Source: Paludisphaera mucosa (GTDB lineage: Bacteria; Planctomycetota; Planctomycetia; Isosphaerales; Isosphaeraceae). Taken from it: a DNA stretch of 64,000 nt. The stretch covers positions 1,726,808-1,790,807 of the forward strand of contig NZ_JARRAG010000001.1 in assembly GCF_029589435.1 (NCBI RefSeq), given 5' to 3'. The position numbers and the translations under genes are program-made. The notes under the pieces were generated by a model that saw nothing but the letters and a program-made list of their open reading frames with translations, ran no database searches and was not told the origin of the DNA. The first letter of the stretch is position 1. Each line of letters starts with the position of its first letter. Positions 57,866 to 64,000 of this stretch are shown here, one piece after another.

Positions 57866-59038
57866 TCAGCTCTCGATGACCTCGCTGCGCGGGTACGAGC
57901 CGAGGACGTCGAGGCGTTCGCAGCGCTTGCGGATGGAGTCGACGGCCTTCTGGACGATCGGGTCGTCGATGTGCCCCTCGACGTCCAGGAAGAAGAGGTA
58001 GGCGGGATTCTTGTCGCCGGCGGCCGACGGGATCGGGAAGGACTCGATCCAGGTCATGTTCACCCCCATCTTCTCCAAGGGGGCGATCGTCTTGACGAGC
58101 GAGCCGGGATCGTTGGGGATTCGGGCCATCAGCGTCGTCTTGTCACGGCCGGTGCGGGCCTCGGGGGTTTCGGCGATCACGGCGAACCGCGTGACGTTGT
58201 TCGACTGGTCCTCGATGTTCTCGGCCAGGATGTTGAGCCGATACGCCTGGGCGGCCGGCTTGCTGGCGACGGCGCCCGCGAACTCCTCGCGCTGAGCCAG
58301 CTCGGCCGCGGCGGCCGTCGAGACGACCTCGATCTTGGCCGCCTGGGGCAGATTCTTCCCCAGCCAGTTGCGGCACTGCGAGATCGCCTGCGACTTCGAG
58401 TAGACCCGGCGCATCTGGCTCCACTCGCAGCGGCCCAGCAGGCAGTGGTGGATCCTCAGTCGGACCTCGGCCCGGATCTTGAGGTTGGGCAGCTTGGTGA
58501 ACATGTCGAGCGTGTCGGCGATGCGGCCGTCGGTCGAGTTCTCCAGCGGCACGATCCCGAACTGGACGTGACGGCGGTTCAACTCTTCGAAGACCGCGGC
58601 GATCGAGCCCAGCGGCACATGCTCCACGGCCTCGCCGAATTTGGCCACGGAGGCCAGGTGGCTGTAGCTGTACTTGGGCCCCAGGCAGGCCACGCGGAGC
58701 GTCCGCTGCAGGGAACGCGTCCCGCTCATCAGCTCGCGGAAGATCAGCCGCAAGGTGTCCTGCGGCAAGGGCCCCTGGCTGGCCCCGAGGACCTTGGCCA
58801 GCACCTCCTCCTCGCGGGCCGCCGAGAAGATCTCCATGCCGTTGGAGTTCTTGACCTTGCCGATTTGCACGGCGATCTCGGCGCGACGGTTGAGGATCGC
58901 GACCAGTTCCTTGTCCATGCGGTCGATCTCGCTGCGTAGAGACGCCAGGGAAGGCGTTTTCTTCGCATCCGGAGGCTCGGCCGCGGCGGCGGGAGTGGAC
59001 GATGCGGGAGGGACCGGCGATGAGGACTTGCGGGCCAT
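57866..59038 (-). CDS. pheA: Bifunctional chorismate mutase/prephenate dehydratase
   Basis: A 390-residue P-protein of phenylalanine synthesis. An N-terminal Ala/Pro tail precedes the chorismate mutase domain (about 26-110, LRSEIDRMDKELVAILNRRAEI). Prephenate dehydratase covers about 115-295 with PLENSTDG and NNVTRFAVI. The ACT domain (about 305-385) has IPNDPGSL, but the ESRP motif that binds feedback phenylalanine reads ESFP. A near-consensus sigma-70 promoter lies about 130 bases upstream. Confidence 0.94.
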   Translation of the reverse strand: MARKSSSPVPPASSTPAAAAEPPDAKKTPSLASLRSEIDRMDKELVAILNRRAEIAVQIGKVKNSNGMEIFSAAREEEVLAKVLGASQGPLPQDTLRLIFRELMSGTRSLQRTLRVACLGPKYSYSHLASVAKFGEAVEHVPLGSIAAVFEELNRRHVQFGIVPLENSTDGRIADTLDMFTKLPNLKIRAEVRLRIHHCLLGRCEWSQMRRVYSKSQAISQCRNWLGKNLPQAAKIEVVSTAAAAELAQREEFAGAVASKPAAQAYRLNILAENIEDQSNNVTRFAVIAETPEARTGRDKTTLMARIPNDPGSLVKTIAPLEKMGVNMTWIESFPIPSAAGDKNPAYLFFLDVEGHIDDPIVQKAVDSIRKRCERLDVLGSYPRSEVIES

Positions 59039-59174
59039 CGGTACACTCGGAGAAAGACCAATCCATCCGGCGGGCAGGCGCGACCGGCCTCGATCCAGCT
59101 CATACGCGCCGGGCTCGACGCGGCCGAGAACCCTTCGCGTCGCCTGGGCTTGGACGCAAGGTTCACGTGGATAA

Positions 59175-59203
59175 GGTATTAAAAGAATAGTCGACCTCTG
59201 TCA
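59175..59203 (-). promoter_or_regulatory. Near-consensus sigma-70 promoter for pheA
   Basis: On the minus strand TTGACA (59203-59198), a 17-base spacer and TAATAC (59180-59175). Transcription would start near 59168 and leave a leader of about 130 nt before the pheA start at 59038. Confidence 0.75.
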
Positions 59204-59303
59204 AGCAATTTCCCCGGCGACCGGCAGTGGATTCTCTCGGCCCATGGGATCCCCTATGATTGGGTTTGAGTCCTCGGCATAGAACGCGGGACGTTGTCGC
59301 ACG

Positions 59304-59320
59304 ACTGCCAAAACGGCGGT
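59304..59320 (+). promoter_or_regulatory. Inverted repeat, upstream copy; possible activator site
   Basis: ACTGCCAAAACGGCGGT, an imperfect inverted repeat with the pattern ACTGC-N6-GGCRGT. It matches a second copy exactly 40 bp downstream at 12 of 17 positions and in both arms. It lies about 165-181 bases before the expected sigma-54 start, where bacterial enhancer-binding proteins usually bind. Confidence 0.45.
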
Positions 59321-59343
59321 GAGGGGAAAGCCACTTGAGAGCG

Positions 59344-59360
59344 ACTGCTATATCGGCAGT
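59344..59360 (+). promoter_or_regulatory. Inverted repeat, downstream copy; possible activator site
   Basis: ACTGCTATATCGGCAGT, a perfect 5-bp arm repeat that extends to 8-bp arms with one mismatch (59341-59348 with 59356-59363). It lies about 125-141 bases before the expected sigma-54 start site. Confidence 0.5.
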
Positions 59361-59458
59361 TGCAGATCGAGCAAAGGAGCGATGCCAAGAATATCCTCGT
59401 TTCCATAAACCACTAGCATATAGCCATTTAGATAAAGTTTTCGAGAAAAAAATCGGTC

Positions 59459-59473
59459 TGGCACGACGCTTGC
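59459..59473 (+). promoter_or_regulatory. Sigma-54 (RpoN) promoter upstream of dnaK
   Basis: TGGCACGACGCTTGC matches the RpoN consensus TGGCACG-N4-TTGC at every fixed base. The -24 GG (59460-59461) and -12 GC (59472-59473) have the required spacing. Transcription would start near 59485, giving a leader of about 158 nt to the dnaK GTG. An AT-rich stretch (59380-59456) lies between it and the two inverted repeats. Confidence 0.7.
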
Positions 59474-59642
59474 GATTCTGGAGATAGCATCGGTTGAGAC
59501 TCGGTTGACCTCTTGATGAACGGCCGTCGGCCGGCGAATCCGATTCGGAACGTGAGCGTCGTTCCCGGTCTGGTCGCCTCGCGCAACGTCGTGACGCGCG
59601 GGTACCCTCGTCACCGCTCAACGTGGAAGAAGGAGATCGGAC

Positions 59643-61568
<1,926 letters not shown>

Positions 61569-61601
61569 CCCGCCGGGACCCGAGCGGCGTCCGACGACCC
61601 C

Positions 61602-61642
61602 GGGACGAGGCCCCGACTCCGTCGGACGCCTCGTCCCGTTTT
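61602..61642 (+). terminator. Intrinsic terminator after dnaK
   Basis: A 10-bp perfect outer stem (61602-61611 with 61628-61637) with an inner 5-bp stem (61613-61617 with 61621-61625), followed by GTTTTC. It should end most dnaK transcripts before clpB. Confidence 0.7.
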
Positions 61643-61789
61643 CACGCGCGTCCCGCGCCTCCGGCGACGGGCCGCGGAATCGCCCGAACCCGAAGTCGCA
61701 TGGAGACGTAAAAGAATATTACCTCCCACGTGCGTCGAGGGGCGGACGGCCCGCCGCCCGACGCGTAACCCGAAAGGCGGTCGACCCTC

Positions 61790-64000
<2,211 letters not shown>

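Follow-up and report, generated by a model that had tools for sequence, protein, structure and literature searches.

Heat-shock control usually rests on sigma-32 in Proteobacteria and on HrcA/CIRCE elsewhere, and the locus described here raises the question of what drives dnaK where the promoter recognized upstream of the gene is of the sigma-54 type. The window, the whole 64-kb stretch of DNA analyzed, comes from an 8.2-Mb genome of the family Isosphaeraceae. Our best explanation, which we regard as likely, is that an enhancer-dependent sigma-54 promoter drives dnaK as one member of a Planctomycetota heat-shock regulon with a shared activator site; binding, heat dependence, and the activator remain inferred.

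The dnaK locus and its upstream region

The dnaK gene occupies positions 59643..61568 on the plus strand and encodes 641 amino acids from a GTG start, matching Pfam HSP70 and scoring above the cut-off of the NCBIfam DnaK equivalogs. After a gap of 221 bp it is followed by clpB (61790..64000, plus strand), truncated at the window end. The best NCBIfam match of the latter is ClpB TIGR03346, with a score of 1133 bits that falls below the cut-off of 1232 bits because the gene is cut. No sigma-54 module, by which we mean the -24/-12 element together with an upstream dyad, was found in the gap between the two genes, and clpB lies at most 1500 nt downstream of dnaK in 21 of 30 Isosphaeraceae loci. 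It is possible that clpB is transcribed by read-through from dnaK. We considered and rejected the possibility that the sites serve the divergently transcribed pheA-like gene on the minus strand (57866-59038; identified by eye), as that strand of the window has no module. Elsewhere in the genome, two neighboring, diverged Hsp70-like frames of 696 and 663 residues were seen at G000:C2:1987519-1992332 (L002-L004, L007, and L008).

The first-pass annotation, made without database searches, had described a consensus sigma-54 element, TGGCACG-N4-TTGC, preceded by two inverted repeats exactly 40 bp apart and by an AT-rich segment, and all three parts held. The element, at 59459..59473 on the plus strand (TGGCACGACGCTTGC), is an exact match and the sole one in the window; nine exact matches are present in the whole genome and none when the pattern is read backwards. 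The repeats, which we treat as putative distal and proximal upstream activator sites, lie on the plus strand at 59304..59320 (UAS1; ACTGCCAAAACGGCGGT) and 59344..59360 (UAS2; ACTGCTATATCGGCAGT), 40 bp from start to start, and their 13-bp cores begin 153 and 113 bp, respectively, ahead of the -24 element. The pattern originally given for them, ACTGC-N6-GGCRGT, fits both copies and was refined across relatives to a dyad with the core TGCCA-N3-TGGCA within ACTGCCA-N3-TGGCAGT, which describes the sites better; measured against this core, both window dyads are imperfect, with two mismatches each. The AT-rich spacer between UAS2 and the promoter (59390..59458, plus strand) is likely, by inference, to be a bend region. 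With a start ~12 nt past the -12 GC, as inferred from the promoter geometry, the predicted dnaK mRNA 5' leader spans 59485..59642 (plus strand) and contains AAGGAG at 59630-59635.

Taken alone, the promoter element could be a chance match of a short consensus. In support of this rival, the -24/-12 pattern with up to two mismatches occurs 19 times in the window against 17.2 expected from shuffles; in this relaxed form it is no commoner than in shuffled sequence, and the element by itself is therefore weak proof. The evidence against chance comes from conservation and from the genes at which the module is found.

Within the genus, we compared the footprint of the region in six genomes, the present one included. 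Invariant columns made up 12/15 of the -24/-12 element, 8/13 of the UAS2 core, and 7/13 of the UAS1 core, compared with 5/98 between UAS2 and the promoter, 1/23 between the two sites, and 20/124 upstream of UAS1. Ahead of the predicted start, the sigma-54 parts thus stand out as islands of conservation in otherwise eroded DNA. The predicted leader also shows fair conservation in these genomes, with 63 invariant columns among the 135 that span 59486-59620. An RNA thermometer in the leader was considered and rejected, given that no Rfam match was obtained up to an E value of 1 and that the leader folds less stably than shuffled sequences (z = +1.85).

A second exact TGGCACG-N4-TTGC in the same genome, at G000:C2:4028201-4028215, belongs to htpG (L034) and has a dyad with two mismatches 112 bp upstream of it. 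The remaining seven of the nine exact matches lack a dyad within 220 bp, and none of them precedes a recognized heat-shock gene.

The module upstream of dnaK in Planctomycetia

A lack of the -24/-12 element in relatives had been named beforehand as a possible refutation of the sigma-54 reading. Our sample of dnaK upstream regions numbered 100 and covered 14 families of Planctomycetia: 40 came from Isosphaeraceae (of 42 genomes with a dnaK match, two being excluded for a missing 5' end) and 60 from 13 further families (taken from 93 genomes with a dnaK match). To these we applied one fixed rule: the -24/-12 pattern with TGCCA-N3-TGGCA, at up to two mismatches, 45 to 175 bp upstream. The -24/-12 element was present in 96 of the 100 regions and the complete module in 94, leaving 6 main dnaK upstream regions that fail the rule. 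The condition named as a refutation was thus not fulfilled. Under the same rule, dinucleotide shuffles gave 5 matches in 2,000 (0.25%), and neither the reversed sequences nor the opposite strands gave any (0/100 each).

The sequence and the geometry of the dyad are both specific. Seven alternative half-sites matched only 1 to 8 of the 100 regions; the near variant TGTCA-N3-TGACA matched 79, as expected from its resemblance to TGCCA-N3-TGGCA. With at most one mismatch, a half-site spacer of 3 gave 82 matches and other spacers gave 0 to 5. Paired repeats, which the first-pass annotation had proposed to look for in related dnaK upstream regions, were found: 62 of the 94 regions with the module carry at least two sites, and 32 carry a single site at the threshold used. 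In the 62 multisite regions, 40 bp is the commonest spacing (19 regions), followed by 43 to 45 bp (23 together). The proximal core most often starts at -113 or -112 (26 of 94), matching the window, and the AT-rich segment recurs as a similarly placed peak, with a mean AT content of 0.56 to 0.61 at -60 to -21 from the start of the -24 element versus ~0.42 further upstream (94 relatives).

Second dnaK copies occur in four Isosphaeraceae genomes (L073, L074, L077, and L070). The three whose upstream regions could be read have no module, and the start of the fourth was not located; second copies may therefore be under different control.

The relatives in these counts are not independent samples. 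Moreover, the rule was shaped after the dnaK upstream regions had been viewed, so that a genome-wide search is the more independent test.

Genome-wide searches for the module

We ran the dyad plus -24/-12 pattern over whole genomes while ignoring gene labels. The pattern was first written on Isosphaeraceae and then, slightly altered, applied to the other families and after that to genomes outside the class. Pfam searches bore out the reference proteins used for labeling, which match the Cpn60, Cpn10, HSP20, HSP90, HSP70, and ClpB/AAA_2 models.

In Isosphaeraceae, 25 matches were obtained in 22 of 45 genomes, compared with 1 for the backward control, and 24 of them lie before heat-shock genes (20 dnaK, 3 hsp20, and 1 htpG), with a single match before another gene. 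The other Planctomycetia yielded 67 matches in 42 of 80 genomes and none for the backward control; 63 of the 67 are at heat-shock genes, namely, 44 of the 47 whose genes were read and 19 of the 20 left unread, which lie beside dnaK by coordinates. Those 44 precede groEL, groES, dnaK, hsp20, clpB, or the gene of a receiver protein ahead of groES. The three exceptions among the read matches are secA (L210), an unidentified gene (L183), and a locus cut by a contig end (L211), and the sole unread match not beside dnaK (G093:C1:3388483) is unidentified. Outside the class, the search returned 41 matches in 35 of 139 genomes, spread over 16 families, and 38 of the 39 that were read precede heat-shock genes; the backward control gave 1 match over all 156 genomes.

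Taken together, the targets of the module are dnaK, groEL, groES, hsp20, htpG, and clpB, with secA once, and 98% of the matches with an identified gene are chaperone loci. Among the few nonchaperone matches, three of them unidentified, no nitrogen gene was recognized. With conservation upstream of dnaK in 94 of 100 regions, the genus footprint, and this specificity for one kind of gene, a chance match is all but excluded.

The genome-wide pattern is strict, and its misses are therefore not absences. The stricter form used outside Isosphaeraceae misses even the two sites of the window and returns no match in the genome that carries it (G000). These counts, in which 35 of the 139 genomes from other classes have a match, do not show the reach of the regulon over the whole phylum.

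At several loci, in Planctomycetia and in other genomes of the phylum, the gene that directly follows the sigma-54 module encodes a small receiver-domain protein, and groES comes after it. At the receiver-protein loci (L169, L207, L208, L289-L294, L429, and L436-L438), groES was found downstream in 13 of 13, and PF00072 was matched in the two proteins tested.

A set of at least 80 titled dnaK loci was also searched; some of them come from the G-numbered genomes, and Rhodopirellula baltica is not among them. The main planctomycete dnaK copies in this set (L340-L349, L351, and L353) carry the module in 12 of 12 cases, and two "Candidatus Scalindua" records are among the phylum members with the module at dnaK. 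The module was not found at the Aquisphaera insulae paralog (L350) or at L352, L354, and L355. None of the 64 loci titled as other groups (L356-L419) has it, and 7 of these 64 have the -24/-12 element alone.

HrcA, CIRCE, and other promoters

Control by HrcA/CIRCE would require that the genome encode the repressor and that a CIRCE site lie close to dnaK, and the searches support neither. HrcA (PF01628) had no match in the genome under study and matched 1 of the 156 phylum genomes, weakly and inside a 1,197-residue frame, compared with 7 of 14 control genomes. No CIRCE-like site was found in the window with up to five mismatches. RpoN, on the other hand, was found in 154 of the 156 genomes, including this one, where its DNA-binding domain lies at G000:C2:2048412-2048888. 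In one genome (G212), the module precedes a receiver-groES operon (L438) and yet no RpoN DNA-binding domain was matched; this genome is possibly incomplete.

It could still be argued that dnaK is driven mainly by a housekeeping or RpoH-like sigma factor and that the sigma-54 element is secondary. In favor of this rival, rpoH is present in R. baltica (PMC2754498) and RpoH has not been excluded in the present genome; moreover, the hrcA-grpE operon of Chlamydia, a relative in the PVC group, has tandem sigma66-sigma54 promoters (PMC8762339). Against it, no sigma-70-type promoter was found in 59150-61900, the CIRCE search of the window was negative, and the islands conserved upstream of the predicted start are the sigma-54 parts. 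We therefore consider it unlikely. The Chlamydia operon resembles our locus in having a sigma-54 promoter ahead of a dnaK-type operon but differs in that HrcA and CIRCE also act there, whereas here no HrcA was found and the conserved element is the sigma-54 promoter.

The criteria for an enhancer-dependent promoter, namely, -24 GG/-12 GC spacing, activator-site dyads at least ~100 bp away, and the presence of RpoN and of activators (bEBPs), are met, with protein binding to the dyads being inferred. The layout that the first-pass annotation had proposed is thus supported by conservation far beyond chance, by the presence of RpoN, and by the failure to find HrcA in the genome and CIRCE in the window.

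Comparison with known systems

Sigma-54 on these chaperone genes is not new as a prediction. A 2025 study (PMC12316311) reported predicted sigma-54 enrichment at the GroEL, IbpA, GroES, GrpE, DnaJ, and DnaK groups in Planctomycetia, with a weaker enrichment of chaperone groups in Phycisphaerae and a presence also in Bacteroidota. That work shares with ours the class, overlapping genes, and the sigma factor, and differs in scoring -24/-12 promoters; it notes that EBP specificity is not documented for every organism studied, and neither UAS nor "upstream activat" appears in its main text. The open-licence literature searched yielded no description of the shared enhancer dyad, of its geometry, or of a shortlist of two activator genes.

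Like the NtrC box TGCACCAnnnTGGTGCA (PMC8743547), the dyad spans 17 bp, is built around CCA-N3-TGG, and lies upstream of sigma-54 promoters. It differs in its outer bases (ACTG...CAGT here, TGCA...TGCA in the NtrC box) and in its targets, which here are chaperones. Of the 100 dnaK upstream regions, 1 contains TGCAC-N3-GTGCA as a dyad. The criterion for an NtrC regulon, the presence of the NtrC box, is not fulfilled.

When R. baltica is moved from 28 to 37°C, the induced proteins include ClpB, GroEL, DnaJ, GrpE, Hsp20, DnaK, ClpP, Cpn10, Cpn60, FtsH, and SecA (PMC2754498). This set overlaps the genes that bear the module in our searches, dnaK, groEL, groES, hsp20, clpB, and, once, secA; R. baltica promoters were not included in them. 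The same study found that rpoN was not heat regulated, and its authors suggested a "significantly different response cascade"; the words HrcA and CIRCE are absent from its main text. An unchanged rpoN level is what would be expected for an activator-controlled sigma-54 system but lends no support to it.

These comparisons bear on a further rival, in which the promoter does depend on sigma-54 but responds, by way of a two-component activator, to nutrition or growth and not to heat. This rival is favored by the NtrC-box frame of the dyad and by the receiver domain, recognized by eye, of one universal activator clade (L013, described below). Against it, nearly all matches with an identified gene are chaperone loci with no nitrogen gene recognized among the rest, and much the same genes are heat induced in R. 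baltica. We regard this rival as very unlikely.

Candidate activators

The genome encodes 11 strong bEBPs among 19 PF00158 matches. In a tree of 72 proteins (matches to an E value of 1e-30) from eight genomes in seven families, only two clades, L013 and L016, contain all eight genomes. The L013 clade has a support of 100/100; its member here has its AAA+ part at G000:C2:2355852-2356349 and carries the receiver domain seen by eye. L016 (G000:C2:4490953-4492152) has ~400 residues, with an AAA+ domain and a Fis-type HTH, and no sensor domain was found in it.

The helix INRNTLHKK, or one closely similar to it, is retained in the L016 orthologues of the class. The R and N of this helix correspond to two of the three positions at which 1NTC, the structure of an NtrC mutant in its DNA contacts, differs from an approximate NtrC reference sequence. 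Most members of the L013 clade have the helix GERTLYRK, in which the RN pair of NtrC is absent. L016 is preferred over L013 because of its RN-type recognition helix together with a dyad that shares the frame and core of the NtrC box. This is an inference from sequence without binding data, and we consider L016 as likely as not to be the activator of the module. The rival view, in which the actual activator is L013, the bEBP with the receiver domain, paired with a histidine kinase, is less likely but cannot be discounted: its clade holds all eight genomes with full support, and only the indirect evidence of its helix, also without binding data, stands against it.

The distribution of L016 leaves its role outside the class unsettled. 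At an E value of 1e-95, L016-like proteins were found in 17 of 17 Planctomycetia in the phylum sample and, outside the class, in only 13 genomes (families f19, f22, f50, f52, f58, and f60), although this limit may hide diverged orthologues. Of these families, f50 and f58 carry the module; so do 14 families that lack an L016-like match at this limit. One L016-like match (L338) has a different helix. The closest L016 homologues in some families outside the class (L327-L335) have a longer N-terminal part, in frames of ~540 residues, and the Planctomycetia form may therefore be a shortened version.

Other candidates were rejected. The L011 clade, the next best after these two, lacks G053, a single-contig genome with the module at dnaK and groEL. 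A bEBP gene adjoining dnaK was not supported, as a motif search of loci outside the bEBP set gave only one bEBP frame, at the "Ca. Scalindua" locus L351, with another HTH. No GAFTGA-type motif occurs in the window, and no dyad with at most one mismatch was found near bEBP genes (13 loci of ~3.5 kb). The genes around L016 were also compared across eight genomes. Some of them (an argH-like gene and others, all identified by eye) recur, in at most four genomes, and none of the neighbors was noticed to be a heat-shock gene.

L016 resembles PspF-type sensorless bEBPs in that it pairs AAA+ with a Fis-type HTH and yielded no sensor domain, and differs in that its score of 286 bits is below the NCBIfam PspF cut-off of 443.6. 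To our knowledge, no partner protein of L016 has been described. In Myxococcus, HsfA/lonD is reported to be a case of a heat-shock gene under an NtrC-like activator; it differs in belonging to another phylum and in involving one gene and a response-regulator activator.

A proposed sigma-54 model for chaperone control

In the mechanism that we favor, sigma-54 RNA polymerase would be held closed at the -24/-12 element, and a bEBP, with the sensorless L016 as leading candidate, would bind both ACTGCCA-N3-TGGCAGT dyads. Looping over the AT-rich spacer would carry the AAA+ ring of the bEBP to sigma-54, and, when unfolded protein accumulates, ATP hydrolysis would open the promoter so that dnaK, and perhaps clpB, is transcribed. 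The promoter, the sites and their spacing, their conservation, the near-exclusive presence of the module at heat-shock genes, the presence of RpoN, and the lack of an HrcA match are seen in the sequence. Binding, looping, heat induction, and the identity of the activator are inferred, with no transcript start, rpoN mutant, or binding data at hand. The earlier proposal that an activator couples chaperone synthesis to a signal likewise remains an inference, the transcript start, the dependence on rpoN, and the activator being without direct evidence.

A bolder reading is possible, in which a sigma-54 switch replaced repressor and sigma-32 control in Planctomycetota. One bEBP (in Planctomycetia PspF-like and sensorless), acting at one enhancer sequence ahead of the chaperone genes, would be held inactive by free chaperones and released by unfolded protein, and the ATP-driven opening of the promoter would make the response all-or-none.

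Sigma-54 control, which the first-pass annotation had presented as unusual for dnaK, is not peculiar to this dnaK and is better described as belonging to a broader heat-shock regulon in the phylum. The scope of the finding is thus much larger than first stated, although the extent of the regulon within the phylum is not shown. For the reading of genomes, the dyad plus -24/-12 provides a key that marks chaperone genes, and the search for the activator in Planctomycetia is narrowed to two candidate genes, L016 and L013. A sigma-54 heat-shock regulon would also account for the different response cascade suggested for R. baltica (PMC2754498). In a phylum where HrcA was hardly found, the chaperone genes seem to be controlled by sigma-54 promoters that depend on an activator and share a single conserved enhancer.
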